Shown piece by piece: positions 2,487 to 64,000 of a stretch of DNA of 64,000 bases. Below the pieces are notes generated by a model, which did no database searches, had not been told where the DNA came from, and saw only the letters and a list, made by a program, of their open reading frames with translations. Within the stretch, counting starts at the first letter, position 1. Each line of letters starts with the position of its first letter. The stretch is from Aquilaria yunnanensis (lineage: Eukaryota > Streptophyta > Magnoliopsida > Malvales > Thymelaeaceae): positions 83,854,001-83,918,000 of the forward strand of contig CM077599.1 of the NCBI GenBank assembly GCA_039654915.1. Reading direction: 5' to 3'. Both the position numbers and the translations under genes were made by a program.

Positions 2487-2498
2487 TGGTATCAGAGC
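2487..2498 (+). promoter_or_regulatory. Primer-binding site of the LARD
   Basis: TGGTATCAGAGC starts 3 bp after the 5' LTR end. It is the usual complement of the 3' end of initiator methionine tRNA, which plant LTR retrotransposons use to prime minus-strand DNA synthesis. Confidence 0.9.
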
Positions 2499-5400: not shown

Positions 5401-6620
5401 AGGGTGTGGCTTAAGATGTGGGACACAATGTGTACCCAAGAGTAGGGACTAAGAGAGGACCAGGAAAGGTTGAGTTTCAAGGGTCCCAAAAGGCTTCCTA
5501 AGAAAGTTGAGAAGTACCATGGAGCCTAAGAGAATGTAATGCCAAGTGTACACCTAAAGTGGTGAAGTAATTAAGCTAAGGCCTAAGGGTTACAGTAGTA
5601 ATACTTTGGGGGCAGTATGGGGTATTTCAGGCACCTAAGTAAGTTAATTAGTGGTGCTAAGAGTTGGTCTCTAGTAATTTGAGGAGACCTAAGAAAAAGC
5701 TGTAATGCCCTAGATCACCCCATCGTCAAAGAAGGCCAAGTTAATTAAAGATTGACTCCTAGGTATCATAGAGTGAAGAACATGCTAGCGGTGTCTTAAG
5801 AATTAAGGGCCAAGATTGGCTAAGTGACTAAGAGTAGTCAAGGACACAGCATGTTAGTGATTACCTAGAGGAGTCAAGTGTAGAAGAGTAGGGTAGTTTG
5901 TAAAACACCCAAGGACACCCAAAGAATGTAAAGTCTTGTGAGCTAGAGTGCCTAAGTTGGGTGTAGGTACTGCCAAGTTAAGTGGTGCAGAAGTGTTAAG
6001 TGGTGGCAACTAAGAAACACCTATGTAGGGCTAGAAAGCCTAAGTGAGGTGTAGACTTTTAGAAAGTTCCACCAAGGGTATTGATTCAAGTAGGAGACTT
6101 AGTACTCCCAGAAGAAAATCATTAGGAAGGAAGGCCTAAAGGGGAGCAAGTTAGCTCTAAGTTTTAGAGGCTTAAGTGAAATTTGGGAGTACAGGGTTTT
6201 GCCTTGTGAACCAAGGTAAGGTGTCCATTTCTTAAGTAGTATCTTAAGAAGTTCTTAACCATCAAGATAAGGTCTGTTGGTTAGACGTGTCTTCCCTCGG
6301 CAAGAGTAAGTCCGTGAGAGTGGGAGTTCGACTCCCAGGTTCCCGAAACGGGCGACCAACGCTGGTGGTGGGCTAGGTCCCAGCAGCCAGGTTGGATAGT
6401 GGATAATGCAGCGCTGGTGGTGGGCTAAACCCAACAGCCAGGTTGTAAAAATCCAGTCAGGCCCTCACGGGTTTGGTTGAACAGTGCTCGTGGTTAAGGA
6501 GCTATGGATAACCATAGTAAGGAAAGGACCATGAGTAAGAGAACTGAGCGCTTTGTAGGAGGATTAACATTTAAGTATTGTGCTCGGTTACGAATAAAAA
6601 TTTGGAGGACCAAATTTCTT
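2499..6620 (+). other. Non-coding interior of the LARD
   Basis: About 4.1 kb rich in CTAAG/TTAAG words and short stop-riddled frames. The longest frames (70-100 residues at 3792-4004, 3970-4236, 4768-5070, 5214-5489) show no retrotransposon motif, so I do not call genes. A run of about 22 A lies at 4264-4285. Most of the interior looks like degenerate retrotransposon sequence without coding capacity. Confidence 0.7.
6278..6336 (+). other. tRNA-like A/B-box module (possible SINE head)
   Basis: TGGTTAGACGTG (6278-6289) resembles a Pol III A box. About 34 bp downstream GGGAGTTCGACTCCC (6322-6336) forms a T-arm-like stem with a GTTCGA loop, as in a B box. Order and spacing match a tRNA gene, but I cannot fold a full cloverleaf, so this is not called a tRNA gene. 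Two copies of a GCTGGTGGTGGGCTA unit follow at about 6361-6445. A tRNA-derived SINE or a captured tRNA piece is the likely reading. Confidence 0.45.
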
Positions 6621-6633
6621 AAGGTGGGGAGAA
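6621..6633 (+). promoter_or_regulatory. Polypurine tract of the LARD
   Basis: AAGGTGGGGAGAA lies directly before the 3' LTR start (TGTAAAGG at 6634). Polypurine tracts prime plus-strand DNA synthesis in LTR retrotransposons. Confidence 0.85.
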
Positions 6634-9291
6634 TGTAAAGGCTCTCCTAGTATTTCCTCTACATAAAATGTTGAGGTAAGTGTTTCCCAAGTGTGACGGC
6701 TCTCCTAGTCGATTAATCAAGTAAGTGTTTGTTAAATTTAAGTACCTCAAGTTAGCACCTTGTTAAGCAAGTAAGATAAGCTTAATTAAGTTAAGTGAGT
6801 TCCTAAGTATGATTTGGCATAGTTAAGTCAAGACCATTAGTTATTCTAGCTTTTAGAATCATCCTAGTAAGCTTTGACAACTTGTGGCACTAAGTGTGTT
6901 TTTGGGCCATTTGAATCTTAAGTGGCTAAAGTGTTCAAGAAAATTAAGTTTGGGAAGCTTTTAGTATCCTTTAGAACAAATAAAAGTGGTTTTGAGTGAG
7001 GGTTTGGTGAGCTATTTGAAGCTTTTGAAAGCTAGTGGACTTAGGTGCAAGGAGAAGGAAAAGTTGACTTGTTTGCATATATGCAAGTCTTCTTCTTCCT
7101 TAGTCATTTGCAACTAACTCCAAATTTTCGTGGCTCCACTTCCTCTCCCAAAATCACAGCCCAAGCTTCATTTTCTTGCAAGATTTCATCAAATTAAAGG
7201 GTGCCCAAGGTGTTAGAAGGATCACCAAGCTTGTTTGTGGTGTTCTAGCTCAAGTTTGCTCTTTGGAAGCTTGTTTTGGATCCAATTTTCGTGGGTAAGC
7301 TTCTTGAGTTTATTTGGATTGGTTCTAGGTTGTTTTAAGAGCTAGAAATGGTCTTGGTTTGATTGGTTTGGGTGCCAAATTGCTTTGGTTTTAGACTTGG
7401 AACTCAAGGAAGCTTGTGGAGCTAGGAAAGCTTATGTTGCATTGCTTGCTTGTGTGGCTAAATTGAGGTAAGGGTTTAAGTAATCAAGCTCAAATAATGC
7501 ATGGTTTTGTAGTCTTGTGTGTGGGGATGAATTAGGAACAAGACCCATTAAGTTTGGATTAGAAACGAGAGAGTTTGAGTAGTTTATGTGCAAGAACGAC
7601 ACGGACGCACAAACCCAGAAAAACAGAGTTGGCGACGCGTCGCCAATTCGTCCGTGAATTGGCGCCGCGGCGCCAGGATGCGAAAATGTCACAGAGCGTA
7701 ATACGCTGTGGCGCCGCATCGCCAGAAGCAATTGCTCCTTGGCGCCGCGTCGCCAAGTGGGATTTTGGCCTCATTTTCCGGCCATCCTAAGGTTAACTTA
7801 GGCTCTCGGTTTCTATTCCTAGGTTATCCTAAGAGGTTCCATAGCCTCGGTTGGGTCTAGAATTCATTCCTAGAGCGGGAATTTTGCATTATTTAGGAGG
7901 TAGTTAAGTTGTGTGGTTAAGTAAAAGTGTGTGACTTGGTGGCTAAGTAATTCAAGTGTGCTTAAGCTTTTGAATGAGCACTAAGGGGATTAAGAGGGGT
8001 TTTTAGACTCTTTATTGGCCGTATAGAGTATCAATTACATATGGTCAATAGAGAGAAAAACCTAAGTCGATCCCAACTGAACCATTTGGTTTGGTAGGCA
8101 AGCCACTAGTAGTGTTTGAGTTAAACCTTGAGGGTTTGACTAGTTTAACCACATAGGATAACTACCCTACACAATAATTTAAGGGAAGAGACGGGTAAGA
8201 AGTGAGTAGGTGGAAACTTACTCTAAGTAGCTCGTCAAGGCGGGTAAGGTTGAGTAAGCAAGGTCTTACTCTAAGGTGCCCGTAAGTGGACTTCAAGGGG
8301 ATAATTAAGTGCTAGCAAGGATACGAGGGCCAGTATCCAAGTACCCCAATCGTAAGAGCTCACGACAAGTCCAACACCTACGGGTGTAAGGAAGTCCTAA
8401 GCGCATTGCATGTGCATAATTCATTCATTCATCCATCCATCCCATCATTTGCATTATTGTTGTTTATTTACTTGCTTTTGGTTGTGTGTTGTTTGCTTGT
8501 TTGTTGATTTGTTTTGTATGCATTATTTATATGCTTGATGTGCCTTGTTTGCTTGCATTATGTTTTTCCTGCAGGTGCTAATCCCTTACTGAGTACTTCG
8601 GAGTACTCACCCCTTAAGTGTTGTGCAGGTTTAAGCACTTTTGTCTGGGCTTAACAGTTGGTAAGGGGCACTGTTAAAGCTAAGTTCTTTTAGTTTCAAA
8701 GGTATTCTCTAAGTAGGAAACTTCATGTTTTCTAAGTTACTTACAGCATAAGTAAGTACTGACCAAAGTGTTTGCCTTACAGAGAGGCTAAGTGAGCACA
8801 AGGATAGTGTGGCTCATCACTTGAAGCTTTCTTGCTTGGGTGAAGAGCTAAGGACGGATCTTAGTAGTTAGTAGTCATAAGATATTTCTTTGATATGTAT
8901 GGTAATTTCATACATAGATTGCCTATACTAATGACCATGGGTGTGTATAACACTAAAGTTACTTTTGGGTGCATATAAGTTTAAGATGTATGCACGCAGT
9001 TGTTACTTGAAGTTAAAGCAACTAAAGATTTATGTCTTGGCTTATTTGATTTATGTTTTCATTAATTGCCGCGGCACTGTTTTCGATGAAGTTTTAATTT
9101 AATTATTATTGCATAGCCAGGACAACGCATGCATATCTTTTATGCAGGGTAGGCTAAGAAACTAGTTGCACGAAATGATTTAAGGTATTTTTACAAGTAA
9201 TAACTAGCCAACTGTAACTTAAGTGGGATCATAGTTCCCTAGAGCCTACCAGTGTTAGTAATTCAGGGCACTGGGGCCCTGTTCCGCCACA
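6634..9291 (+). repeat. 3' LTR of LARD-like retrotransposon (complete, 2658 bp)
   Basis: It runs from TGTAAAGG to CCGCCACA with TG..CA ends. From 6809 on it matches 1-2483 with about 11 substitutions and no indel. It contains the palindrome cluster (7629-7756) and the GAGTACT hairpin (8591-8608). Confidence 0.93.
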
Positions 9292-11731: not shown

Positions 11732-14330
11732 TATGAAGATGTTGCTAATGTACCATCTGCATCACCTCCACCTCCACCGAGCAGTAGTGCTACCCCAAAT
11801 GCAACTGTACAAGGTACAGTATTACAAGCCTCTCTGCGAAGAAATTACATTAAATGATACCCATATGGAAAAAATTGCACGAAATTATGCTAAATAGTGA
11901 GTTATCACATGCTCGTCATGTGATCAGAAGTTATTTAGTATCTAACTTCTCATTATCCCTTAAGCATCTCATATGACCCACAACCTAAGAATTTTAGGTT
12001 TTGTAGGCAACGGAGGCTCTTCGTCTCAGACTATTATAGCTACTGTCGTTATTGCAGTTTTCATTGCAATTGCTTCCTTCACTTGCCCCCTTCTACTCAG
12101 GCTGTGGAAACCAAAAAAGCAAGAAACCGTTGGTGAGAGCTTTGTTTCTAGCTTCTGTTTGCCACAGGTTATAGTCAGAGTCGGCTGTTTAAATTATCAC
12201 CAACCAAAGCCAGAAAAACTCTGATTTGTTTATGAATAAAGTGATGGTTTTTAAAAGCACACAAACTTTGCACCTAGTACTATGGTAGAATTTTTGGAAC
12301 TGCTGAGAAGGAAAAGGGCTTCTCAGCTGATCTAATGTGCTTAGTCAATTTTTTTTATCTCATGATGTCTTCGACAGTGCAAAATCTTTGCAATTTGAGT
12401 TCAGCAGAATAAGAGAAGCAACAAATTACTTTTCTAAAGATAACAAGCTTGGAGAATGAGGTTTTGGTGCAATTTATAAGGCAAGTAAAATATTTCATGG
12501 ACACGTAACCAGCCCACTCTAAGTATTTATGTCTCATTGTTCCTTGATGAGCAAATTTATAGGGTACGCTTTCTGATGGACAAGATATAGCCGTGAAAAG
12601 GATGTCAAAAAGTTCCAATCAAGGACAATTCGAGAATGAGGTTCTATTGATGGCGAAACTTCAACACAGGAACTTGGTTAAGACTCCTTGGATTTCCACA
12701 CGAGGAAATGAGAGGCTTCTTGTCTATGAATTTATGCCTCAATCAAGTTTAGAGAAGTACATATTTGGTATGGTCCCCCCCTTCTTGGCTCAATAACAAC
12801 ACTAGTCTGCTTTATTTGAGACAAAAAAATACATGTTTTAGCATGTGCATCACTTGTGGCTAGCTAGAAATATTTATACTTCAAGAATGGCCATCCTTGC
12901 ACATTGCAAATCCAACCAAATCTTTACTTCTAGATTGGGACAAGAGACACAAGATAATAAGAGGAAATAGCCCGAGGGACTCTATACCTTCACGAGGACT
13001 CTCAGTTAAGAATTATTCACCATGATTTAAAAGCAAGTAACATTCTTTTGGATACAGAGATGAATCCTAATATATCAGATTTTGGACTCGCAAAGTTGTT
13101 CCCTGATGATATAACTCAAGCTAATGCTAGTAAGATTGCTGGAATGCTGTAAGTATAAGATTCAGGCCTTGAAGCCATATCTAGAATTTGCTAAAATAAA
13201 TCTAAAAACAATAAAATATGCTGACTTTATTAATTCTTAACTTCTCCAGGGGTTATATGGCACCAGAATACATACAAAGCGGACAAATTTCTATCAAAAG
13301 TGATGTTTATAGTTTCAGAGTTTTGGTTTTGGAAATTATTAGTGGTAAAAAGGTCAGCCATTCTGATGATAGAGAGGAGTTTGGTAGCCTTATAAGCTAT
13401 GTAAGTGCCATACATCAGCAGTAAGTAAATTGCATAAATGGTCTCTAACCTTTAATTATTATTTCGTTTTAGTTCCTAACCTATTGAATGTAATGTTTTG
13501 GTCCTAAACCTATTAAAATTGTATCATTTTAGTCCTTTAACAGATGAAATTCATTAATTCAGAATAATTGCCTTATAAAAACTTTTGAAATGCTAATTTA
13601 AATGTTTAGTAACTATCTTCGAGTAAATTTAAACAGTTTAATATTTTACGACAATAAATATACAATTTAAATTAGTAATTTTTTATTCTTGAATGAAATA
13701 AGTTCAATTTACAAAGAGAAAAAAAGGTGATTTGCATTCTCCATTAACTATAAAAAAAATTATTATACAAATTAAATTTATCATAAAACATTTACCAAAT
13801 AGTTTAAATTTAGATCTAAACAGTTGTTATCAGAAAAATACTTTGAATTAATAAATTTCATCCAATTGTGACCAAAATGAAACATTTTCAGTAGATTTAG
13901 GACTAAAACGAAACATTTTTAATAGGTTTAGGACTAAAACAGAACATTCAATAGGTTAGGAACTAAAAGGAAACAATAACTAAAGGTTAGAGACCATTTA
14001 TGAAATTTACTCCATGAGCCGCTATTCCTAAAAATCAAGCAATAACGCCTTTAAAATTGAAATAGTTTTGTACCATGTGACATGAGATGCATACAACTTG
14101 CCCTTCTGTGTGTTCAAGAAAATGCTACTCACAGACCCTCCAAGGCAAATGTGGTGCTTATGCTAAGTAGCATCTCCATCCCTATGCCGGTGCCATCAAG
14201 ACTTGCATTCCTTTTGTACATCCCACTAAAGAGACCATCCTCAGAGGACATAGTATTAGACCAATCAGAAAATAAAAACATTCAATTTAGTAACAATGAA
14301 GCCTCACTTTCTGAGGTAGCTCCTAGATAA
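11732..14330 (+). pseudogene. RLK1: cysteine-rich-type receptor-like kinase, broken
   Basis: The exons follow the order of plant CRK/DUF26 kinases, but the extracellular cysteine-rich exon is missing. Visible pieces: proline-rich juxtamembrane end (11732-11813, EDVANVPSASPPPPP); transmembrane exon (about 12007-12132); glycine-loop exon (about 12376-12480); VAVK-lysine and alpha-C exon (12563-12767); catalytic-loop exon (12934-13148, HHDLKASN in place of [14 protein letters not shown] kept); GYMAPEY exon (13250-13400); C-terminal exon (about 14082-14330). Lesions: TGA at 12457-12459 where the glycine loop should read GEGGFG; a shifted stretch around 12690-12705 after NLVK; a 1-bp frameshift near 12970; and no sequence for the exon that normally begins AWRLW. 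The donor after the glycine loop is GC, not GT. A family of membrane kinases in signalling, but this copy cannot make a kinase. Confidence 0.85.
13425..14010. mobile_element. Foldback MITE in RLK1 intron
   Basis: About 586 bp with long terminal inverted repeats. The left end reads GTAAATTGCATAAATGGTCT and the right end, on the other strand, GTAAATTTCATAAATGGTCT. The similarity continues through about 150 bp on each side (TAACCTTTA, TTTTAGTTCCTAACC, GGTCCTAAACCTATTAAAA). The middle is AT-rich and has no coding potential. I cannot assign a superfamily because no clear target duplication is visible. Confidence 0.75.
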
Positions 14331-22295: not shown

Positions 22296-22982
22296 TCAAA
22301 ACAATTGGCAATGATCAGAAATGAATCTATTTACTGCCACAACGTGGGTTAAAGGCCAAATTGAAACAAAACTATCAGACACCAAAAATATGTCAAGGCT
22401 GCTCATCTTCGACCCTTCCTTATTATACCAAGTGAATTTTCTACCTCCCATTTGTAGATCAGATAATTCCGCTTCATTGATAAAATCGTTAAATGCCTTT
22501 GCCACATTCTTATCGAATTTACTTCCCCTCCTCTCTTCAGGCTTTTTAACTACATTAAAGTCACTCAGTACAACCCAAATTCTTGATATTTTTCTCCTAA
22601 GGTCAATCAACTCTTGCCACAATATTTCTTTCAAACTAGCTTCTTGAGGGCCATACACATTAACTAACACAATGTTTTCGTCACAACCAAACCACTGCCC
22701 GATTACTTCAAGATAACCCGGCCCCGAGAATTGATTAGGTTTATGGAATACATTTGTATTCCAAACAGAAATCAATCCTCCTGATAATCCCACAGCCTGC
22801 TGATGAACAAAATCAAAATCACCTGTTCCCCAAAATGTAGTAACTTGCATTCGAATATCTCCCGACGAAATTGTTTCTCGTAACCCCATAAATTCAAATT
22901 TTTCTGACTTTACGAGGTTCTTAACCAATCTTCTTTTAATTGACTTCCCAATTCCCCTCACATTCAAAGATAAAATCCTCAT
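22296..22982 (-). CDS. LINE endonuclease domain (exonuclease-endonuclease-phosphatase fold)
   Basis: A continuous 228-residue frame beginning MRILSLNVRGIGKS, the usual start of plant L1 ORF2 endonuclease. It keeps RET (usually QET), VNVYGPQE, LSDFNVV (usually GDFN) and the C-terminal ISDHCQ block with the catalytic SDH. This domain nicks target DNA at insertion. The frame stops shortly after SDH; the continuing reading (VLKLNDFDFGPYLFRFFDV) is in another frame and then hits a TAG where Trp is expected, so ORF2 is broken here. Confidence 0.83.
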   Translation of the reverse strand: MRILSLNVRGIGKSIKRRLVKNLVKSEKFEFMGLRETISSGDIRMQVTTFWGTGDFDFVHQQAVGLSGGLISVWNTNVFHKPNQFSGPGYLEVIGQWFGCDENIVLVNVYGPQEASLKEILWQELIDLRRKISRIWVVLSDFNVVKKPEERRGSKFDKNVAKAFNDFINEAELSDLQMGGRKFTWYNKEGSKMSSLDIFLVSDSFVSIWPLTHVVAVNRFISDHCQLF

Positions 22983-24404: not shown

Positions 24405-24683
24405 TATAAGGGAAGCAGGCGAGAATTCTCTTCAAAGCAAAACAGAGCATGGATAGCCGAAAATCATGGCCAATATTCTGTCATTATGTCTATATTTGGA
24501 GAATGGTTTTAAGGCTGATTTCCAGGATTGTATTTTGTAAACAGTAGCTTAGTTCTAGCCTTACCGTTTACTTGTTTCCTTATCTAGCTATACAGATATC
24601 TGTATATATTCTTTGATCTTTTATCAATGAAAAGTGTGCGAAAACTATTCATTGAAAATCACGGCAATACTCATTTTCTTACA
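24405..24683 (+). repeat. 5' LTR of Copia
   Basis: Runs from TATAAGGGAAGC to TTTTCTTACA, and a primer-binding site (TGGTATCAGGAG) follows at 24684. Matches 29011-29289 in length and sequence except for about 7 substitutions. Confidence 0.93.
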
Positions 24684-27600
24684 TGGTATCAGGAGAGCCA
24701 ATCTCTACCGAGTCCTCGATCCAAGCCACTCCCATGTCTTCCTCATCCGCTCAAAATCCAACCTTTACTCTCAACACCCAACCTTCTTCCGCAACTGATA
24801 AACCACTTATTGCTCTCAACATTACTGCCCAACTCAATGAAAAGTTAACTCCCTCCACCTTTCCTCAATGGCGTGCTCAGTTCGAAGCCCTCCTTATTGG
24901 TTACGATTTACTCGACTATGTTGAAGGCACCCTTCGGTGTCCCTCTTCCGCTAGTACTGCTGCTGATGAGCTGCACAAGACCCATTGGGTCTGACAGGAT
25001 AAACTGATCCTAAGTGCTATTTTAGCCTCCACATCCTCCTCAATCACTCCCCTTATTGCTACGGCAAAGACCTCCCATGAAGCTTGGAAAAAGCTTACCA
25101 ATTTATATGCTAGTCGATCTCAAACTCGTGCTATGCAGTTAAAAGAAGAACTTACACTCATTCAGCGTGGAAATCGGTCAATCACCGACTATCTCCACTC
25201 TGTGAAGGCCTTGGCTGATGAAATAGCCATCATTGATCATTCCATTTCGGATGATGACCTAACTCTTTATGTGTTGAATGGTTTAGGTCCAGATTTTCGA
25301 GAGATAGCAGCGCCTATTCGAGCCAGAGAATCTTCACTGGCCTTTGAGGAGTTACACGACCTTCTGGTTGGACATGAAGCCTATCTACGGCGCATGGAAG
25401 CTGCAACGCAGCAACTAGTTTCTTCTGCAAATTTCACGAAGACGAAGCAGTCTACGCAAGGGGGAAATCAATCCTGGTCCTTCAGGAAAAATGATACTGC
25501 ACGTGGAACTCAAGGCTTCAGCCCAGGCCGACATAATCATGGAGCCCAACGTGATGGGCGTCGCTTCAACAACAATTATGGAAAGCCCAGCAATTCAAAT
25601 CGGCGTTATCAACCCAAATGCCAACTTTGTGATCAGCTGGGACATACTGCAAGGTCCTGTCCGACATTTCACTCCCAGAATGCTTCTATCAATTGTGCCG
25701 CCTCTTCTCATGGAAAGGACAAAAATTGGCTCCTTGATTCGGCCGCTTCTCATAATATCACGGGTGATCTTTCCAATCTATCTATTCATTCTGAATATGA
25801 TGGAACTGACGAAGTAATTATCGGTGATGGTTCAGGTTTGGAAGTCTCACAAATTGGTTCTTTGTCTTTGCACTCCCCTCACCGCACTTTTACATTGCGT
25901 GATACGCTTTGTGTTCCAAACCTTTGTAAAAATTTAATTTCCATTCATCATCTCACCAAACAAGACAATGTTATTGTTGAATTTCACCCCTTCTATTTTC
26001 TTGTGAAGGAAAAGGTCACGGGGGCGATTCTACTAAAAGGAGCATGTGACAATGGCATCTACACCTTTCCGGACTCAATGGTAACATCAAAAAAGGTTGC
26101 TAATGTGCATGAACGGACTTCTATTGATGGTTGGCACAAGCGTCTTGGGCATCCTTCTCTTAAAATTGTTCATCATCTTGTCAAAAAATTTTCTCTTCCT
26201 ATTTCATCCAACAAAAATTTGTCTTCACTATGTCATTCATGTTCTATTAATAAAGCTCATCAACAACCTTTTCGTGTCAATAGTCTCCAAAGCCATAAGC
26301 CCTTTGAACTTATTTACATGGATGTGTGGGGTCCTGCTAGTTATACCGGCCTTGATGGATCACGATATTACCTTATTTTCGTTGATCATTATACAAAATA
26401 TATATGGTTTTATCCAATGATCACAAAATCCGGTGTTTCTCATATTTTTCCACATTTCAAAAAGTTTGTTGAAACTCGCTTTCAAAAATCAATCAAAACA
26501 CTATATTCAGACAATGGTGGTGAGTTTATTGCCTTGAAATCATATCTCTCACTTCATGGAATAACTCACTACACCACTGCTCCCCACACCCCGCAACAAA
26601 ATGGTGTTTCTGAACATCGTCACTGTCACCTCATTGAAACGGGCCTTACGCTTTTTCATGATGCAAATCTTGATTTCTCTTATTGGCCTCATGCCTTTCA
26701 AACAGCCTCTTACCTCATAAATAGACAGCCCACGCCCCTCCTTCACGAAAAATCACCATTTGAAGTTCTTTTTGGCCAAAAACCAAATTATTTAAAATTT
26801 AAAAAATTTGGTTGCCTTTGTTATCCCCTCACCCGGCCCTATAACTCGAATAAAATGCAGCCCAAATCTAAAGCCTGTACATTTCTCGGTTATTCACCAA
26901 CTCAAAACGCGTACAAGTGCTTTGAACCACAAACCAAAAAACTCTTCTTTTCACGACACGTGTTGTTTGATGAGACCCAACACCAATCCAGCCCCTTTCA
27001 ACCCATCCCTTCTGTCTCACCCGAAAACTCCCCAAACCCTCCGAAATTTGTTCTTCTTCTTTTTGGTGCCCAGCAACCTGCAGTTCCCTCCTGCGCATCA
27101 GCACCATCGCACCTTCCGGAAGGTCCTCCTGCCATTGTCACGTCCTCCCCAGGTAATTTCGGATCCCCTATTTCTTTACTTCATGATTCTTTTCATGCTA
27201 TAGATCACACCATCCCTAATCCGAATCCTCCCTTAGATGAAAATCGGACTGGTTCGTCCTTAACTCTCCCATCATCTCCTCCTCTTTTCTCTACGGATAC
27301 ACATCTAGGTATTGATTATAATATCTCAAACCCGCATTTCACAAACTCTTCCCCAACAAAAAATCCCCCTCAACGCACTCACAACATAACCACAAGATCA
27401 ATGAATCAAATTTTTAAACCCAAACAGCTCCATACTGTGTCCCACTATCCTCTCCCCCCAACCATAGAACCAACGAGTATGAAACAAGCCCTTTCTCAAC
27501 CTCACTGGCGTGAAGCCATGTCCAATGAACTCACTGCTCTAATGAAACATGGGACTTGGGACCTAATTTTACCACCTTCAAACTGTCAACCCGTGGGCTG

Positions 27601-29146
27601 TAAGTGGGTCTTCCGAGTAAAAAGGAAAGCAGATGGGTCAGTGGACAAATTCAAAGCCTGTCTAGTTGCTAAAGGTTATAACCAACGCCCTGGTGTTGAT
27701 TACAAAGAAACCTTTAGTCCTGTGGTTAAACCAGCAACTATTAGAGCTGTATTATCTATTGCAGTCATGCATGGATTGGATTTGAGGCAACTGGATATCA
27801 ACAATGCCTTTCTAAATGGTAAATTGACTGAAACTATTTTTATGGCACAACCCCCGGGATTCAAAGATTTGTCAAAACCTCACCATGTTTGCAGGTTAAA
27901 CAAGGCGATTTATGGGCTTAAACAAGCTTCACGAGCTTAGTACACTACCCTAAAAAATGCCATTCTTCAACTGGGTTTTCTGAATTCCAAAGCTGACTCT
28001 TCTCTCTTTATTTATAGCCAAGATTCCACTCTTTGTTATCTCCTAGTCTATGTTGATGATCTAGTCATTACTGGAAATAATTCCATTCTTGTGGCCAATA
28101 TTATTAAGCAGCTGGGTGATATGTTTTCTCTCAAGGATATGGGATCTCTTCATTTTTTCTTGGGGATTGAGGTCATTCCTACTCGGGCTGGGCTTTTCCT
28201 CTCACAACATAAATATGTTCGTGAACTTTTAGCCAACACCAGTATGAGTGGTGCAAAAGATGTTTCAACACCTCTCTCTACGACACAGTCTCTTCAACTG
28301 GTTGATGGCACTGCTGCTGTGGACAGCTCCGAGTTCCGTCGAATAATTGGCAGCCTTCAATACCTTTCCTTGACACGTCCTGATATCTCATTTGCAGTCA
28401 ACAAACTCTCTCAATTCATGCACAAGCCGACTACAACTCACTGGACAGCAACAAAAAGGCTTCTCTACTACCTCAAACAAACCATTTTCTATGGTATTCA
28501 GATTCACAAAGCTGGACCTTCCATCTTAAGGACATATTCGGATGCCGATTGGGTTGGAAATGTGGATGACCGAACATCAACCTTTGCCTATATTAGTTTC
28601 TTGGGCTCTAATCCTATTTCTTGGAGCTCAAAGAAACAAAGGGCTGTTGCGCGCTCCTCAACTGAGGCTGAATATCGGGCATTAGCTAATGCGGCTTCCG
28701 AGACAATGTGGCTGTCTACTCTTTTCAAGGAACTAGTATTTCCAATCAAAGAAGCTCCCCAGCTGCTATGTGATAATCTTGGAGCCACCCATCTCAGCTT
28801 TAACCCAGTGAATCACTCGCGCATGAAACATATTCAGATCGACCTTCATTTTGTGCGTGACTTAGTGCACAAAGAAAGCCTCCAAGTCAAACATGTCCAT
28901 ACTCAGGATCAATTGGCTGATCTGTTAACAAAGCCATTGTCAAAACAGCGCACGAAATTGCTTCGTAACAAGATTGGTCTTGCCGATGGAAGCCCAATCT
29001 TGCGGGGGCGTATAAGGGAAGCAGGCGAGAATTCTCTTCAAACCAAACCAGAGTATGGAGAGCCGAAAATCATGGCCAATATTCTGTCATTATGTCTATA
29101 TTTGGAGAATGGTTTTAAGGCTGATTTCCAGGATTGTATTTTGTAA
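24684..29146 (+). pseudogene. Copia gag-pol polyprotein with two nonsense codons
   Basis: Domains in order: Gag (24684-25700) ending in a zinc knuckle CQLCDQLGHTARSC; aspartic protease (LLDSAASHN, about 25730); GAG-pre-integrase with GWHKRLGHPS and a Cys pair; integrase core with MDVWGP, SDNGGEF and NGVSEH; reverse transcriptase from about 27470 with YVDDL at about 28048; RNase H with YSDADW and SSTEAEYRAL; C-terminus at 29146, running into the 3' LTR. Stops: TGA at about 24992 in Gag (after KTHWV) and TAG at about 27938 in RT (after KQASRA). Both fall where Trp is expected. Otherwise the 935- and 351-residue frames are intact. Confidence 0.93.
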
Positions 29147-29289
29147 ACAGTAGCTTAGTTTTAGCCTTACCGTTTACTTGTTTCCTTATCTAGCTGTACA
29201 GATATCTGTATATATTCTTTGATCTTTTATCAATGAAAAGTGTGGGAAAACTATTCATTGAAAATCACGGCAATACTCATTTTCTTACA
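29011..29289 (+). repeat. 3' LTR of Copia
   Basis: Preceded by a short purine-rich stretch (TGCGGGGGCG) and followed by the TCCTA target copy. The 3' end of the pol frame reads into it. Confidence 0.93.
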
Positions 29290-29294
29290 TCCTA

Positions 29295-33773: not shown

Positions 33774-35754
<1,981 letters not shown>

Positions 35755-40350: not shown

Positions 40351-42883
40351 TGTGACAGCTCTCCTAGTCAATTAATCAAGTAAGTGTTTATTTACTTTGA
40401 TTAAGTGTTTATGAAATTAAGTACCTCAAATTAGCGCCTTGTTAAGCAAGTAACATAAGCTTAATTAAGTTAAGTGAGTTCCTAAGTGTGATTTGGCATA
40501 GTTAAGTCAAGACCATTAGTTGTTCTAGCTTTTAGAATCATCCTAGTAAGTTTTGACAACTTGTGGCACTAAGTGTTCTTTAGAGCCATTTAGAACTTAA
40601 GTGGCTAAAGTGTTCAAGAAAATTAAGTTTGAGAAGCTTTTAGTACCTTTTAAAACAAAGAAAAGTTAGTTTTGAGAGTGAGTTAGTGACCTATTTGAAG
40701 CTTTTGAGAGTATGAGGACTTAAGTGCAAGGGGAGGGAAGTTGCTTATTAAGCTTATAAACTAAGTTTTCTTCTTCTTCTTCTTCACTTAGCCAATTGTT
40801 CCATGCTCCCAAAATTCGTAGCCCCACTTTCCTCTCAAATTTGGCAGCTCAAACTTCCATTTTCTTGCAAGTTTTCATTGAATTAAGGGTGCCCAAGGTG
40901 TTAGAAAGATCACTAAGCCCCTTTGCTAGTGTTCTTGCTTCATTTGATCTTTGGAGCTTGTTTTGGAATCCAATTTTCGTAGGTAAGCTTCTTGAGATCA
41001 TTTGGTGTGATTATAGGTTGTTTCTAGAGCTAGAAATGGTCTTGGTTTGATTGGTTTGGGTGCCAATTTTCGTTGGTTTTAGACTTGGAACTCAAGGAAG
41101 CTTGTGGAGCTAGAAAAGCTTGTGTTTCATTGCTTGCTTTGTGGCTAAAATTGAGGTAAGGGTTCAAGTAATTAAGCTCAAATAATGCATGGTTTTGTAG
41201 TTTTGTGTGTTGGGATGAATTAGAAACAAGACCCATTAAGTTTGGATTAGAAATGAGAGAGTTTGAGTAGCTTGTGTACAAGAACGACGCTGTCGCATAA
41301 ACCCAGAAAACTGAGTTGGCGACGCGTCGCCAATTCGTCCGTGAATTGGCGCCGCGGCGCCAAGAAGCGAAATTGTGCACAGAGCGTTTGTTCGGCGGCG
41401 CCGCGTCGCCAAAAGCATTTGCTCTTTGGCGCCGCGTCGCCAAGTGTAAAATTGGCCTCGATTTCCGGCCATCCTAAGATCAACTTAGACTCTCGGTTTC
41501 TATCCCTAGGCTATTCTAAGACGTTCCATAGCCTCGGTTGGGTCTAGAATTCGTTCCTAAGGCGGGAATTGTGCATTATTTGGAAGGTAGTCAAGTTGTG
41601 TGGTTAAGTGTAAAAGATTGTGACTTGGTGGCTAAGTAACTCATAGTATTTAAGCTTTTAAATGGATATTAAGGGGATTAAGTGGGTTTTTAGACTCTTT
41701 ATCGGCCATATAGAGTATCAATTACATATGGTTAATAGAGAGAAAAACCTAAGTCGATCCCAACCAAGCCATTTGGTTTGGTAAGTGAGCCACTAGTAGC
41801 ATTTTGAGTTAAACCTTGAGGGTTTGACTAGTTAAACCACATAGGAAGACTACCCTGTACAATAAATTAAGGGTAAAGGCGGGTAAGTTTGAGATAGGTG
41901 ACGACCTACTCTAGAACCCGTAGATGGGACTTAATTGAGGTAAAGTGTCCGGGATACGAGGGCCAGTATCTCAAGTACCTCAGCCGTTTGAGCTCACGGC
42001 AAGAATTAAGGCACTTAAGTGCAGGAAGTCCCAAGTGCATGTGTTGTGTGCATTTCATACCATACATCCATACATTGCATTTTTGGCATTTTGTTGATTG
42101 TTTGTTGTTTGAATTGCATGTTTGATTGCTTGGTTGCCATATTGCATATTTGTTGCATATTTCTTTGCAGGTATTCAAGAAGGGAATCCTTACTGAGTAC
42201 TTTTAAGTACTCATTCCCTTAGTTTTATTGTGCAGGATCTAATCCCGGGCCTAATCACTGAAGTGATAGTTGAGGCCTAAGCTTTCTGTTTTGCAGGTAT
42301 TTTATTGAGAATCCTAGTGATTCTAGTTTCTTGCAGTATAAGTTATGTGCTAACCAAGTTGTGCCTTTACAGTGTAGAGGCTAAGAGTACACAAGAACAA
42401 GGTCTAGTGAAGGGCTACACTTGGAGCTTGGCTTAGCTCAAGGTGGGCTCAAGTAAATGATCTTAGTAGTTAGTAGTAATTTTGTCTCTTGTACATAGTA
42501 CTTGGTGTACTAAGTAAGTTGCCTCTATTGGGATACATTAGGATGTAAATCCATCTTGTTACTTTTGGGTGCATGCTAGAGTTGTAATGTATGCACAAAA
42601 CTGTTACTTGTAGTTAAAGCAACTAGTATTTCAATGACTTGGTACGTTTTCAGTATGTTTTAATGAAATGCTCGAGCAATGTTTTAATTCAAGACTTTAA
42701 AATTTCGGTTGCATTGCCAAGTCAGAAGCATGCATAACTTAATCTGAGTAGGCTAAGTAACTAGTTGCATATAAATTGTTTTAATTTATATTGACGAGTA
42801 ATAGTTAACCAATTGTAACTAGTGGGATTCATTATCCCTAAGAGCCTACAAGATTAGGGGCACTGGGGCCCCGTTCCGCCACA
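40351..42883 (+). mobile_element. Solo LTR of the LARD family, inserted in LpxD exon 2
   Basis: 2533 bp from TGTGACAG to CCGCCACA, alignable along its length with 6634-9291 but much more diverged, with many substitutions and indels. No primer site, interior or second LTR follows, so it is a solo LTR left by recombination between the two LTRs of an element. It keeps the palindrome cluster (41316-41443) and the GAGTACT hairpin (42195-42212). A perfect 5-bp duplication GTTTT flanks it. Confidence 0.95.
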
Positions 42884-42888
42884 GTTTT
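42884..42888. repeat. Target-site duplication of the solo LTR, right copy
   Basis: GTTTT following the LTR end; the pair with 40346-40350 shows where exon 2 was cut. Confidence 0.9.
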
Positions 42889-55588: not shown

Positions 55589-56315
55589 CTGAAAAAGCAT
55601 AAAACGATTGTTTTTTTAAAAAAAGAAAATACCACCAATAACTGGTTGTAGTAAAAGTCGATTTTTAAACTTGACTCTCAGTTGACTCGACAAAGACGAT
55701 TTTTTTTTCTGGTTCAAGTGTATTTTTTAACCTTTAATCTTTAAATAAGATTATGGTAATCTTATTTTTTTAAATGGATAATTTTTGCCAACTAAGTACC
55801 TTGTGGGAGCCATGTCAGCATCTACTTATCCTAACAACATCATAATTAAACCAGTAACCCACAAAAAAGAGATTAAAATATAAAAAAAAAAACAGAGACA
55901 TTGTTTCACTGCAGTTTACACCGTGTCAAAATTTCTTTTCTACCAAGCAAGGACGAAAGCTGGTCGGCTGTTGTGTTCTCTGTTTTGTCTGCTAAGCATC
56001 TACCTATGTTGTAACAAGGTTGGAAAGAAACCAAATCTGTCAAACTAAGCCAAGAATACGAGCCTCAAGCAAAGACCTGTAGAAGATACACGGACAAAAC
56101 CTTCAACCTAGCTACAAAATGGACCAAACGATACAAAGCACAACTCCAGTAAGGCAACAGAAACTGGAAAATGCCAAAATCACAAATGAATAACAATCCA
56201 AATACGAACGCTGAAGCAATACTTGGAGCGAAAAAAAATCCCTGGATTCAGTAGAAAAGAATCAACTACATTAATCCGCAGCCTTCAAACTCTAAACAAG
56301 GTTAGAATTTATCAA

Positions 56316-56765
56316 ATAGGGCTTTGAGGAGTCAAAACGTTAATTGGCAGAAATTAATATTGGAGAACCAAAATTTAAGCTTAGAACTTGAGATATTTCA
56401 AAGGAATTTGAAGAGCATTAAGGAGATTCAGATTAATAGGAAGAAATCTCTTTCACGGATAGAGTTGGTGATAGGCTCTGTTTCTCTGGTTCTGGGTTTT
56501 TTCTTTCCGTTTTCGTGGTTCTCTGATTTAATCGTTTTTAGGGATTTACTGCTACAGATTTGGGGAAAAGAGAGTATAGGACGAACTGGAGCAACGAAAT
56601 CATAAGAAAGGCTTAGGGATTGAAGCGATGATAAGATTTAGAGATGATTTTGAAGGATTACAGAGAGATTTGGACTGTTTAGTTCAGGGAATAAGGGAAC
56701 GGGAGGGAGCTCTTCACAGAAGAGTATGGCCTTCGAAAGTTTTGGGCAGAGAACTAAGAGGACAT
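56316..56765 (+). other. Possible coding remnant: coiled coil and membrane span
   Basis: The plus-strand frame from 56324 reads a heptad-like helix (WQKLILENQNLSLELEIFQR) and then a hydrophobic stretch (LVIGSVSLVLGFFFPF). A further open stretch in another frame (about 56590-56766) reads LEQRNHKKGLGIEAM and REREGALHRRVWPSK, then a stop. I do not recognise it. It could be chance, a 5' part of a lost gene or a captured piece. Confidence 0.3.
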
Positions 56766-57000
56766 TGATGTCTGTTGTCTGGTTTAATCGTGATGCTGCT
56801 AGGAAAAGAAGTTGTTGTTGCTGACATAGCTCTCACACGTGCTTAGTTGGCAAAACTTATCCATTCAAAGAAATAAGAATGCAATAATCCTGTTTAAAGA
56901 TTAAAGATTAAAAAAGACACCATAACCCGAAAAAACTCAAAGACAGACATGCACCTTGTCCTTGTGTACGTGTAGTCATCTCAGTCGACGGAGGAGGACA

Positions 57001-57260
57001 CTACAACAAAAAGGTTTATAGGTGACATACATTTACCGACATTTTCAAAACAATGTCGAAAAAAATATATTATTACTGACATGTTTAAAAAAATGTAAGT
57101 AAAGAACTATTTAAACCTGACGAATTTAAAAAAATACAGCTAAAATGACTTATTATACGTGACATGTTTAAAAAATTGTAACAAAATATCTATCCAAGCC
57201 CAACAAAGTCCTAAAAACGCAGTTAAAAGTCCACCTAAGACCGACTAGTTTCTAAAATGC
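57001..57260. repeat. Left subterminal region of the gene-carrying CACTA
   Basis: Repeated GACAT/ATGTC words around A-rich spacers (for example near 57028, 57038, 57078, 57161). They match in style the right-hand set at 63660-64000. Confidence 0.7.
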
Positions 57261-57279
57261 AGCTAAATGGTTCGGCCCA

Positions 57280-57700
57280 CTAACAAAGTCCTACCCGGTC
57301 CAAAAATTAAGAAAAAGGGTTTGGGGGGAGAAAAAGAGTTTGGGGGGGAGAAGGAGACGCGTGTGGCGTGCGGCGTGCAGCTGGTGTCTTCCTTCGCCAT
57401 TACTACCGGTCGGTGGCTTCTCAGTGGAAACTTTCCTCCGCCGGTGTTTCATCAGCTCCTTCCACCACCGGCGTTTCTGACGTTTTGGTCAGTCCTTCCT
57501 TAATCCTTAATTTCACCACTCGGACATATGCCACCTTTCCTGCTCACCTCCTCGGCCCTTCAACATTGCCGCTAGCCAACCCAGCCCACCATAAACTACG
57601 ATCGACAGCTCCCATTGCGAATCGGTGCTGAGTCTTCTCGCTAGTTTCATCATAACAATCGAAGGTGAAGTTCAGCGATGGAGTAATTTTTAGTGGAAAA
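57280..57700. other. GC-richer segment of unknown source inside the CACTA element
   Basis: Frames 57267-57503 and 57368-57631 overlap on the same strand; one has AGVFLRHYYRSVASQWKL and SSAPSTTGVSDVLV. I cannot identify a family. It may be a fourth captured fragment or an untranslated leader. Confidence 0.35.
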
Positions 57701-57705
57701 CTTCG

Positions 57706-57990
57706 AGAAAGGTAATTGTCAGGGGAAAGCTTTAAGCTCAACGTGCTAAATTGATGAAGTTCAAGAATGGATATATGATTTCTTTTGGCTATCCTGTCAA
57801 TGAATATGGTGACTCTACTGTTAAACATGTTCAACTGAGACAAGGCATTCTCGGTATCAAGGTCAAGATCATTCTCAATTGGGATTCTTAGGGCAATCAT
57901 GGCCCTAAAACTCCATTATCGAATCCTATTACGGTCCACCCTCTAAAGGGAGTTCTTGGTATCAAGGTGGTACTAGTGCTTGCCACCAAT
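57706..57990 (+). pseudogene. RPS3: Fragment of 40S ribosomal protein S3 (uS3), C-terminal part
   Basis: The plus-strand reading [26 protein letters not shown] then [32 protein letters not shown] follows the C-terminal region of eukaryotic RPS3 ([46 protein letters not shown]). Two in-frame stops (after GKL and after NWDS) and substitutions show that it is non-functional. No intron interrupts the piece. RPS3 sits in the small ribosomal subunit near the mRNA entry channel; here only a captured piece is present. Confidence 0.85.
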
Positions 57991-58410
57991 GTAAAGTGAA
58001 TTAGAAACATAGATAAAATTGGCATGAATGTTTTGCCTGTGATTGATGCTTAGTCATTGATTTGTGATCAGGTTGAAATCTTTGCTTTGGCTATGTCTTT
58101 TTCCATGACATGAGTGAAACAAAGAGGGGATAGAACCCTTACAAGTCGTCACACTGTAATTGGGGTTATATGCTTTAAATTTTTTATTAGTTTATCTTTG
58201 TTCTCTTTGAGGGTCTTATTTATTTTTAAGGGAGTGATTGTGTTTGTTCTTGATGTATGGCTTGTGAGTTTTTTGAGATATATGTGTTTCTAGGGTTATT
58301 TCTGCTCTGTTTGTTTGCAGTTGTTTTAAGAACTGGATGAATCGGGTATATAGCTTTCCCCTCGTTTATGATCATATACCAGCACTAAATCCAATCCTTG
58401 TTATTTTTAG

Positions 58411-59034
58411 GCTATTACAATGTTAGGAACGAAGAAGGGAGAGCTGTTCGTGGCTGATATTAACACCCAGCTCCTGCTGAAGAACAGGAATGTCACTGCT
58501 GATTTTAAAGTGGACACTAGCTCCAATGTGAGTTTGATGCATTTTCTTGACATATATACTTGGATTTCATACATATTTTGTTGGTAATTGGGTTGATTCT
58601 GTTCTTCTAACTTGCATTCGATTTTAAGGACAAGGTTCCAACTCCATGTTTTATTTGTGAACCTTTTATATTTGTCTGTTTGATGAACTCTATTTTATGC
58701 TTCTTTTTTCAGCTTGTCACCACAATAACCCTTAATGAACCTGCCCCTGGGGTGAAGGCAATTCTTACCTTCAAAGTCCCAGATCATAGTTCAAGCAAGG
58801 TAAGTGTCATGATTTTGATTCTCATGTCATTAGCTTATGTTGCCTAAGAACTTGGCTACCCAGTGAAAAGTGCCATCACTAACTTTGTGTCACGGAATAT
58901 GAACATTCAAGTACGTACCAAGTGGAAATGTAATGGTTTTTCTTTTTTGTTCAACAGCTGGAACTTCAGTATCTGCATGATTATGTTAGGATCGACTCTA
59001 GTTTTGGCTTGACAGCAAATCCATTGGTTAACTA
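58411..59034 (+). pseudogene. VDAC: Fragment of mitochondrial porin (VDAC), three exons
   Basis: Exon 58411-58527 reads GTKKGELFVADINTQL and NVTADFKVDTSSN; 58713-58800 reads TTITLNEPAPGVKAILTFKV; 58958 to about 59034 reads LELQYLHDYVRI and GLTANPLVNY. All are the standard N-terminal half of plant VDAC (TGTKKGELFLAD, KVDTNSN, TVDEPAPGLK, VELQYLHDY, GLTANPIVNF). Splice sites AG/GT are good and introns are retained, so it was copied as genomic DNA. The first exon and the C-terminal strands of the barrel are missing. VDAC forms the outer mitochondrial membrane channel; a fragment of this kind cannot. Confidence 0.92.
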
Positions 59035-59074
59035 CAGAGAAATACAAAGTTTCTGTATGATCTATGATTTGCAG

Positions 59075-62000
59075 GCCACATTTGCCTCCTTTATATTTCA
59101 TAGTCTCAAGTCGTTGGATTTGAAACACCAGATAGAGAAGGTTTCAGCTCCCCTGCTTTTGTGCTCTATTTGGTGGCTTTGGTTTCCAATTACTGTAATT
59201 TTAATGCATATCTTATGCTTTGTTAGAACAATAGATCCTGCATTCTAATACCTTTTCTATTTTCTCCTGCATTCTAATGCCTCATTTCTTCTTATTCTTA
59301 GATGTATTTGTATATGATTGATTTTCAGTTCTTCTTATTCTAATAGACTTTGCTTGATGGTGCTTCAACTATGTGTTGACTGTATCCTTTTAATTTTATA
59401 TAATGTCCTCTCTTGACTTCTCAATCTTTAACAGCCTTCTGTTGGTCCAAAAGTAAATGAATATTATGGAGATACCGTTCCATCAAAGCCTCAAAATGTT
59501 GGTCTTCAAGCAGCAAATCAGGCACCTATAACCTCTACAGCTGCTGATGGTATGGATTTCTTTTGTGCAGTTTTTCTTTTCTTTTTTAAAAAAAAGAAAT
59601 TGCCAATGTTGTTGGCATCATTTGTATCCTTTTTGTTGGCATCATGTGTATCCTTGGACACTGGAAGATACAAGTAGAAAAATAGTGCATAAGGCATAGG
59701 CTTGTAACCTGTCTTGCCCACCCCCTTCTAAACATTTCTTGGTCTGAGGTTGGTTTAATAAATATAGTTCAAAGAGGAAGCATCAGAAGAAATCGCATTA
59801 TTAACAGCAGAATGTAATAGCTGATGCCATCACTTTCTTCTCATACATGAAGAGAAAAAAAATGAAAACTAATGATTTGACATTGGAACAAGGAAAAACA
59901 GGGATGACAACATTTACATGTTGAACCTATTGGTCCATTTTGCCTTCACCTCAAACCTACAGGCATGGTTGACAAAGGTGACCGAGCTTTGTGAATGCAT
60001 TGTGTGGGAAATGGCTATATTTTTTAGAAGATGCACTGTTCATGGTTGTGGAAGATCTCAGTGGATTGGAAAATATTTATAAGTATAGATTTCATAAATA
60101 GAGGATGCAATTAGAAATGAGACAATAAAATGTAAAGCAAATATAGACATGGTTGGCAATGAAATAAGGGGAGGATGATAGATGAATTGGCCATTGTTAA
60201 GTGGTGATATTGCTCATGGTTTAGGTGTTTGTTAGTGTTGTATAATGTGGTAAGGCCTCTCCACTTATTGCTGATTGGTTTTTGGTTGAATGCTTTAACA
60301 TGGTATTGGAGCAAAAAATTTTTGTTACTTCATCTAATCTGTTTTTAGTCCTCTTTCTCTGGTCCACATAACGTTCTTGTATTAAATTCACCACACATAT
60401 TGCATGTGCAATCCAATATTGTTGAGTCAATGTGTTGCAAGTGTTGTTTGCTCATTACTTATTGATTTTGGACAGGTGAGTTTGGCACATTTATAATCCA
60501 TGGTAGAGATGAGCCAGATGGCCAAGTGGCAGCTCAACTACCCAATGCTGCAGAAGCTTCTGCTACAGCTAAACTTGTAAAACAGCCTTTAATAAGTGGC
60601 ACTGAAGGTAAGTTAGTTGATCCCAGGTACTGCTGTTGATATATGTGTTACATTTCGTGGACATGCCATATTCAAACAAACTACATCCAACTAAAATGTA
60701 GCCGGTGAAATCATCTTAATAAAGAAGCAAGTGAGGAATTGTCCTTTGGTACCTTCTACTGTGCACTTGCTGCCTAATCTTGTCTATTTGACCCTGAAAA
60801 CAAACAAGCATATGATTCTTGCCTTTATCAGTACTGGAAGGCCTTGTGCCATCTTTGCTTTGCACCTTCCTGCATCCTGTTACCCGTTGTCCATGCTAAG
60901 GCCTCTAGTACAATACTTTGTTTAATCAAAGTTATGCTAGGTCATCTTTAATTCTCGTACAACTGATGACACTGCCTTACTACCACTCACCTGCAAAACC
61001 AGCAGGCCTCCTATATCATTCCGCTCAGAACACCGTATTACAATCGGTCATTCATACTGAAACTGGTGACCATATACCTTGCACGTAACAGCATGTGTTT
61101 GAATTCAGTGCTCTTTTGATGATTTGTGCTGATTCTATCAGATTATCCTAGTGAATGCACTTCAAAGATTTGCTCCAGTAATTATCATTTGCATTACTAA
61201 TGTTGTTGATCTAGGAGGCAACCCAAGTCTTCTGTTTGGTCAATGACTCATGTCTCATTGATTGCAATATTATATAGGGTCGATAACGGAAGAGAGAATG
61301 ATACAAGGACTGTTCCCATTACCAAGCCTCAATCTTCAATGCAGACACTAGAATCATCTTCTGCTCCAGTTCCTTTACCCCCTGACCAGAATCAGAAGAC
61401 AAAGAACACCTCTGAGGCACAGACTAAAGTAACCATTGATAACTCACTGAAGAATGAAACAATTGGCAAGAGAAATTTTGCTTTACAGGACAAGGTTATT
61501 TCTTTTGTGCGCCAAATTGTTGACAGGTTTACATTAGTCTGATAAAAAAAAAAAGAAATATAAATATAGAAATGCTCCCCCATTGCTTTCAAATTTTAAC
61601 GGCCTGGTTAGAGTCAGGTTACTTGTTCTTGTAGCATCCAAAAGATAGAAATGTATAGTCTAAACATTAATTAAATTTGGAGTTCTTCCTTTTCAGGTCC
61701 TATTGCCTGTTTTCTCTCAACCTTGATTCAAGCTCCTCTGTTGCAATTTTCTTCCTGCTCCACTCAAACCTACCAAACACACGCTTTTTCTTTATGTTGT
61801 GGCAGCATTATTAAGCCTGGATTTTCTTTCTTTTTGCAGCTCTGGTCTATCTATGCAGCTGGTAATACAGTACCCATCCCATTTTTGCGGGCAACTGACA
61901 TATCCCCCATTGCCCTGTTGTCAGACAATTTGATTGGAAGCATGCAGGGGAATAGTGGCAACATGATTACCGCAGAAGCACTTCAGGAACTTTTTGCTGG

Positions 62001-62376
62001 TGACGGGCAATCGAGAAAGGGACGGAGACTGCAAAACGGGGTCACCTTTTAAACTCCTTTCTCTTCCTTCAAGATATCAGTTTTTCACGGCCAAGTTGAT
62101 CAACCGATCACTGTCCTTGACATGCTATAGATGCCCCTACCAGCTAGTGTCTGCCAGAGACTTGCTTCAAGTTCTACATTGATGAACTTGGCACAAGCTT
62201 TACAATACCACAAAACGTAAGCACATTAATGATCCTTGGTACCTAAGATTTTGCTTGTACCGTAACTCATTGCCATCCGTTGCAGGTGTTATGAAGAAAT
62301 GCCACTACAAGAACTTCAAGCGACTCAGGAGCAACAGACTGTTCACCTTTGTGATACATTGAGAACGATTCTCTGA
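59075..62376 (+). pseudogene. SIK1: C-terminal exons of a SIK1/MST-like Ste20 (MAP4K) kinase, no kinase domain
   Basis: Exons: 59075-59140 (FASFIFHSLKSLDLKHQIEK), 59435-59549 (VNEYYGDTVPSKPQNVG), 60476-60607 (GEFGTFIIHGRDEPDGQV), 61278-61494 (PITKPQSSMQTLESSSAPVP), 61840 to about 62040 (WSIYAAGNTVPIPFLRATD, ALQELFAGD), 62131-62216 (MPLPASVCQRLASSSTLMNL), 62286-62376 (CYEEMPLQELQATQEQQTV, TLRTIL, stop). This follows the C-terminal regulatory half of plant SIK1, a Hippo/MST-type Ste20 kinase. The kinase domain is absent; a VDAC piece stands upstream instead. Phase between the third and fourth exons does not fit simply, and the donor after LQNG is weak, so the copy is probably decayed. Identification of the exact family member is from memory of the C-terminal motif. 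Confidence 0.75.
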
Positions 62377-63650
62377 TTGTAATCTTTTGTATGCGGCTTA
62401 GAGTTTGTTGTATGCATATCCTCTCGAGTCCTTTGATTACTTTTGTAAGTTGGTCCCCTATGGTGATATATGCAGATTCAATTGAGAAACAAGTAATTAT
62501 TTATGAGGCATCATCCGATTAATTTTCTTCTTCCAGCAGAAACTAGTTCAGAGAAAATTTGGATCTAAGTGGAACTGAAGCCTTTTCGGACGGCTGAAAC
62601 TAGTTTTCTTCTAAGTTTTGGAAACCTTTTTTGTTTTATGGCCAGTTTGGTACATCTTACCATCGTTTTCCCAGTTTAGTACATTAGTTCAACATCAAAT
62701 TTCTGAATTTGCAGATTGTATCTACCGCAATTGGTCAGAGGAAGTGAGATTTTAGGAGGACAAACATGAAGGATGTTTCATGTTGATAAGTAGATGTCAA
62801 GCAGAAGGTCTCAAGGTAAATCACTTTCCCCCCTAAGATTATCTGAGATTATTTGTTGGTGGTTCTCTTCTTGAGACCTCTTGTCTTACCATTAATTCTA
62901 GTTGATCTGATTCATGGCTGTGGGATTGGGTTTAAAATTTGCACAAACTTGGAATTGCTTTCTGCCAAGATTAATCTCTCTATGCTGTAGTTTATGAACA
63001 ACACCAAAATTTCTGGTTATTATGAACAATAATCTTGTGTTAGTAGTTAGAATGTAGTTTAATTAGAATATATTCGGCTTAAGCCTACAGGTCCAAAATT
63101 TCTGGTTATTATGAACAGTTAATTTGCTTAATGATTGTGGTTAAATATGCGACAAGCTATGTGTCTAGTTTTATTTTTAGATGAGAAAAGATTAGAGCCT
63201 CATGGAACTCATAAAATGCATTTGTACTTGTTTTCAAATTCAGGTACCTTTATTGATTTGGTACTTAGTATCGGTTTGCTAGGATCAAAGACAAGTTCAT
63301 CTGTGGACCAATTTTGAGCCTTCTCCTCTATTATTGGTGGTACCTAGTTCATGCCAATCACATGATGTGGCGGAAGAAAGAGAGCCATCCAGAGAAGTGA
63401 GGCCGCCGGACTTGAAGTCATTTTTTGATTTAGTCTTTGTACTGAACCTTGGACATCTTATTACCACAATAGTAATTCATAATTATTTAGAGTTTCTACA
63501 TGTATGAATTTATTACAATTTTTATTAATTAAAAAATTTTATTATTCAACATAAATGTTCGTGCAATTTTTATTGATGATAATAGTGTAGTATTATGATC
63601 TCCTACTACGAAATAAGTGAACAATGATATACTAGGAGAGAAAATTAATA
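62377..63650. other. Downstream of the kinase fragment: 3' UTR-like and unassigned sequence
   Basis: The first 150 bp look like a 3' untranslated region. 62700-63420 contains short frames and a GC-richer patch near 63360-63420, none recognised. 63440-63650 is AT-rich. Confidence 0.4.
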
Positions 63651-64000
63651 TTCCAACTATCCTTTAATAGCAGCGTTTTTTTACAAAAATGCTGGAAAAT
63701 TCATGTACATTGACGACGTTTTTTGAATAAAAATGCTATTGAGTGCAGTACATTAGTGATGTTTTAAAAATAAAAAAGTGACTAGATATGATAAATTTAC
63801 CGGTGTTTCTTGTTAAAAATGTCACTATTGGTTGTTCTTTACTTGCATTTATAAAACGCAGGGAAATACCTAAAACCTTTACCAACGTGTACCTAGATGA
63901 CATTTTTTTGTGACGTTTTTAAATTGTCGGAGAAGGTGAAGCCACGTTTTAAAAACGTCACTAAAAGTTGAAAAAAATGTCGCTAATGAACTATTTTGTT
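63651..64000. repeat. Right subterminal region of the gene-carrying CACTA
   Basis: Repeats of TGACGTTTTTAAA, ACGTTTTAAAAACGT and GACATTTTTTTGTGACG, and the closing sequence CTATTTTGTT, mirror the left end at 56999-57260. The terminus itself is just beyond the window. Confidence 0.7.

Follow-up and report, generated by a model that had tools for sequence, protein, structure and literature searches.

A probable Pack-CACTA transposon carrying parts of three host genes in Aquilaria yunnanensis

Introduction

An element of about 7.0 kb in the genome of Aquilaria yunnanensis is, with high probability, a Pack-CACTA, a non-autonomous transposon of the CACTA (En/Spm) superfamily that carries parts of three host genes. 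It opens at position 56999 of the window, that is, the whole stretch of 64,000 nucleotides that was analysed, and runs to the window's edge. Its cargo consists of a piece of ribosomal protein S3, a piece of VDAC and a piece of a SIK1-type gene. An earlier note on this DNA had named these three genes and given them one orientation, and both points hold, as S3, VDAC and SIK1 all lie on the + strand. We describe the captured pieces and their unequal decay, the message they might give, the ends that enclose them, and the place of the element among known systems.

The captured gene pieces

The first piece corresponds to the C-terminal part of ribosomal protein uS3 (RPS3) and is decayed; Pfam, solved chains and uS3 proteins locate it at 57712-57948 of the + strand, and by eye it may reach back to about 57686. 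The Pfam family PF00189 scores 32.9 bits upon it, just below the curated cut-off of 34.1, and solved uS3 chains of 32 distinct sequences match it, with E up to 1e-20. In the solved chains 8ip8 and 8jiw its counterpart is residues 136-214, and the top-scoring solved chain is 9p8h, with two matches in one chain of 454 residues. Among proteins, it matches uS3 of plants and of other eukaryotes, at a best full-coverage identity of 71 per cent, in other organisms. Two stop codons fall within the matched part and a third just upstream, and no intron was seen across the 237 matched bases. The S3 piece is plainly a pseudogene piece. It is followed by a second S3-like copy at 57949-57968, 20 bases coding for GVLGIKV, which are identical at 17 of 20 positions to a stretch 105 bases earlier; the sequence 3' of this repeat is unlike S3. 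This scrap is perhaps a trace of templated repair, or chance. The piece had been drawn at 57706-57990; its identity and strand are kept, and its extent is now the match itself followed by the short repeat to 57968.

The second piece consists of three VDAC exons on the + strand, at 58411-58527 (exon a), 58713-58799 (exon b) and 58958-59035 (exon c), which agrees with the three exons first placed at 58411-59034. Exons a and b keep acceptor and donor, while exon c keeps its acceptor, and the VDAC match breaks off inside it after NPLVNY, at about 59035. Pfam finds Porin_3 on the piece at 53.7 bits, the cut-off being 28.4. In the protein collection, 154 of 158 candidates match, the named ones among the 120 listed being flowering plants, and the best full-coverage identity among the matches listed is 73 per cent, in other organisms. 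The sole solved-structure match to the VDAC text was Ataxin-1, at E 0.55-0.58, which was taken as chance.

The third piece is from a SIK1-type gene and holds its final six exons, introns included, the kinase domain being absent. Alignments of relatives and splice sites place it at 59435-62376 of the + strand, with exons at 59435-59549, 60476-60626, 61278-61494, 61840-62040, 62131-62216 and 62286-62376, and a stop codon at the end. The piece corresponds to residues 522-819 of a relative of 821 residues (P0001), whose kinase domain occupies residues 228-482. Matches were obtained with 403 of 3911 candidates; the best full-coverage identity among the 120 listed is 57 per cent, in other organisms, and one relative among the matches listed reaches 63 per cent over 66 per cent of the query. 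No Pfam family and no solved structure was matched by the SIK1 text. The initial reading of SIK1/MST-like C-terminal exons at 59075-62376 was thus right in identity, in C-terminal position and in its end; the start is now the first recognisable exon at 59435, and the region is non-catalytic only.

The stretch from 59036 to 59434 gave no match to eight SIK1 relatives at E below 1. The VDAC match ends in mid-exon, at about 59035, and SIK1 is not matched before 59435, so that the two pieces are joined abruptly. The splice sites of VDAC and SIK1 are kept: apart from the broken-off end of VDAC exon c, AG stands at every expected acceptor and GT at every expected donor. The exon frames of both pieces are open, without a frame break, and that of SIK1 can be read through to the stop codon. 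Introns are retained in two of the pieces and none is apparent in RPS3 over its matched bases, just as the earlier note had described.

Beyond the SIK1 stop lies a stretch of about 1.2 kb (1.2-1.4 kb) before the right subterminal repeats, 62377-63600, which may be SIK1 downstream DNA or an additional captured piece. A 34-base direct repeat is found inside it, at 63004 and 63093. Two kinase-like tracts elsewhere in the window, 12964-13346 and 34594-35293, were considered as the missing SIK1 half and rejected; the eight SIK1 relatives match them at about 24-39 per cent, and by eye they are receptor-like kinase sequences.

Unequal decay of the three pieces

The pieces differ in how far they have departed from their relatives. 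At near-invariant residues, where at least 95 per cent of relatives agree, the number changed is 17 of 62 in S3, 5 of 53 in VDAC and 5 of 77 in SIK1, so that change in S3 is about three times that of VDAC. By Fisher's test, S3 differs from VDAC (0.018) and from SIK1 (0.00095), and VDAC and SIK1 do not differ significantly (0.74). The counts are of sites rather than of events, with an S3 stop taken as one change. The relatives were the top matches to the fragments, 98 of the 120 listed for SIK1 and 104 of the 120 listed for VDAC, taken by length; for S3 they were 29 named land-plant entries out of 77. When each relative was left out and scored in turn, the medians for S3, VDAC and SIK1 were 0.000, 0.000 and 0.013, and the maxima 0.111, 0.093 and 0.052.

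At the 95 per cent threshold, VDAC stands at 0.094 against 0.093 for its highest relative, and SIK1 at 0.065 against 0.052. The 90 per cent threshold gives 19 of 69 for S3 (highest relative 0.101), 6 of 60 or 0.100 for VDAC (highest relative 0.115) and 9 of 100 for SIK1. The 98 per cent threshold gives 3 of 40 for VDAC (highest relative 0.073) and, on a provisional exon text, 1 of 55 for SIK1 (highest relative 0.071). With the thresholds mixed, it is likely, and not proved, that VDAC and SIK1 have decayed as well.

This unevenness suggests, most simply, either separate captures over time or an S3 source that was already dead. We infer that there would have been more than one capture event, and that the S3 piece would be the oldest, or would come from a pseudogene. 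A variant of the Pack-CACTA reading holds that S3 entered the element already dead, possibly reverse-transcribed, and that all three pieces were maybe captured in one event. It draws on the same facts, S3 being the most changed piece, bearing stop codons and showing no intron over its matched length; separate captures would account for that decay too. We consider this variant possible, at less than an even chance.

A possible chimeric message

A transcript running through all three pieces is possible, as had been supposed at the outset, and a spliced VDAC-SIK1 transcript would be possible in principle. The S3 piece, with its stop codons, is expected to make no protein contribution. The frame of VDAC exon c runs on into 59036-59434, ahead of the first SIK1 acceptor, and if the GT after 59140 were joined to the acceptor at 59435, the reading frame that starts with the ATG at 58420 would stay open for 412 residues.

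Together with exons that lack stop or frame break and keep their GT-AG borders, this open frame is what would speak for a young chimeric gene under selection, its VDAC and SIK1 exons spliced into one message and one protein. Against it, an open frame would follow from 3 of the 19 GT dinucleotides at the junction, which makes the finding unremarkable, and the GT after 59140 is a weak donor by eye. VDAC and SIK1 also lie slightly above every relative at the 95 per cent threshold, which is decay-like, while the other thresholds are mixed. We consider such a gene very unlikely. Even less credence is given to the further idea that a putative 412-residue fusion, composed of an incomplete beta-barrel stretch and a non-catalytic SIK1/MST-type tail, might be expressed and might interfere with or regulate its parent genes; this would be a most improbable outcome.

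The ends of the element

The left terminal inverted repeat occupies 56999-57028 of the + strand (CACTACAACAAAAAGGTTTATAGGTGACAT) and starts with CACTACAACAAAAA, which equals the CACTA 5' terminus with 0 mismatches and is the sole exact copy on both strands of the 64-kb window. The flank to its left is GGA, at 56996-56998; the GTAGTG expected of the right end, and the second copy of a 3-bp target-site duplication, would fall past position 64000. The right terminal inverted repeat is seen at 63977-64000 of the - strand, minus its last six bases, which lie past the window edge. Its reverse complement, AACAAAATAGTTCATTAGCGACAT, is identical at 18 of 24 positions to the inner 24 bases of the left repeat, AACAAAAAGGTTTATAGGTGACAT (57005-57028); this pairing with 57005-57028 means that the window ends where six further bases are expected. 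When the left tip was slid over the 63,976 minus-strand 24-mers of the window, 18 of 24 was reached only at the window end, and the runner-up reached 17. A looser left-end pattern, at up to 2 mismatches, has 2 matches in the window against 1.51 expected, and 38 of 100 shuffles had as many. As this is chance level, the weight of the case falls on the exact copy and its pairing with the right tip.

Both ends also carry closely spaced direct and inverted subterminal repeats, a trait of CACTA (En/Spm) elements. At up to 2 mismatches, four TGACRTTTTTAAAA-like copies lie on the + strand at 57037-57173, and four lie at 63757-63960, two per strand. The same count gives 4 in 56999-57250, 4 in 63601-64000, none in the interior and none in the other 56,990 bases. 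At 3 mismatches, there are 5 on the left and 9 on the right, against a single interior copy and 35 across the remaining 56,990 bases (0.61 per kb); the counts of 5 and 9 were attained by 0 of 300 dinucleotide shuffles of either end. The motif was defined after inspection of both ends, and since it was picked from them, the rest of the window is a fairer control than the shuffles. The interior counts likewise give no clear sign that an element end is buried there. The first reading, of a CACTA-type element with matching ends, is borne out by the exact left terminus, by a right tip that is its best inverted partner as far as the window reaches, and by the motif common to both.

That a pseudogene cluster or segmental duplication came first, the CACTA ends being one or two separate insertions at its flanks, is highly improbable: in its favour, the right end is incomplete in the window and 1.2-1.4 kb of unassigned DNA follows the SIK1 stop before the right subterminal repeats begin; against it, nowhere in the window does the left tip have a better inverted partner than the right tip, one motif is common to both ends at the expected terminal positions, and no other match to the left-end pattern at up to 2 mismatches occurs between them.

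Classification, mechanism and surroundings

As to the Pack-CACTA kind, host gene fragments are present in the form of S3, VDAC and SIK1. No family reached its cut-off for a transposase in 34 stop-to-stop peptides of the element, a search in which shorter or broken remnants could be missed, and the same 34 peptides gave no family at its curated cut-off for a fourth captured gene. These peptides include the 30 longest of the 44 that have at least 50 residues (one of them, at 63283, without its last two residues). Family matches below cut-off were discarded as chance, save that of Porin_3 on the peptide of VDAC exon c. There is no second copy of the element in the 64-kb window.

In the proposed mechanism, the ends would be recognised by a transposase encoded in another CACTA element, which would mobilise all the DNA between them. 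The gene pieces may have been acquired when neighbouring insertions fused, or by copying during gap repair, and the window favours neither. Two papers explain gene pieces in CACTA elements by the former, with two neighbouring insertions that fuse and enclose the intervening DNA (PMC8903248; PMC13317346).

The surroundings of the element are rich in repeats, which was counted in favour of the Pack-CACTA reading. Just upstream lies a 1.2-kb unit, 55703-56935, whose ends, 152 and 157 bases long, form an imperfect inverted repeat (80 per cent). Its flanks, CAAAGACGA and CAAAGACAG, resemble by eye a decayed 9-base duplication, so that the unit is perhaps a Mutator-like element. At 2-2483 and 6810-9291, about 4.3 kb apart, a sequence of 2482 bases is directly repeated with 99.6 per cent identity, and 1-9291 is probably a recent LTR retrotransposon; a diverged relative of the 2482-base repeat (76 per cent) occurs at 40351-42887. 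A Copia-type polyprotein lies between 280-base repeats (97.5 per cent) at 24405-29290, adjoining a LINE-type endonuclease domain at 22296-22982, and the Copia-type unit was perhaps inserted into LINE-type sequence. A BED-finger protein is found at 51.5-52.6 kb.

Known systems and significance

A close likeness is to Tgm-Express1 of soybean, a 5.7-kb CACTA element with intronic and exonic parts of five genes. It lies within an intron of a gene for flower colour and yields, through alternative splicing, at least 12 distinct transcripts, 11 of which include element exons (PMC1947982). Both are of the CACTA family and contain intron as well as exon sequence from several unrelated host genes. They differ in that Tgm-Express1 is credited with five fragments and with transcripts, whereas the present element has three recognised fragments and is known from sequence alone. 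Given that published element, to call the present combination of pieces a notable mix, as was done at first, was an overstatement. The element also resembles the Pack-CACTA elements of Arabidopsis, rice and maize, which are non-autonomous, bounded by terminal inverted repeats, and carry coding DNA from several places.

Other CACTA elements are also described with captured gene parts. Copies of Cactavine-5 in grapevine are reported with part of a PPR gene, and CACTA elements of Chenopodium with pieces of AP2 or Neprosin (PMC2528002, PMC8978399). By these descriptions, their captured part stands beside a transposase region, while none was found here. A passage of a paper on bean cites two earlier reports of gene capture by CACTA elements (PMC4938662). 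The Tpn1 family of the Japanese morning glory, related to En/Spm, captures host genes according to the title of a cited work, and is likened to the present element by description only. No paper joining a CACTA transposon with a voltage-dependent anion channel was found in one collection searched with one wording.

Gene-carrying elements are well documented, and this one is therefore a good but ordinary example. It adds one to the clear cases in which a cut-and-paste transposon has shuffled exons. Given the source genes, the unequal decay of its three pieces would provide a way to order the captures within one element.
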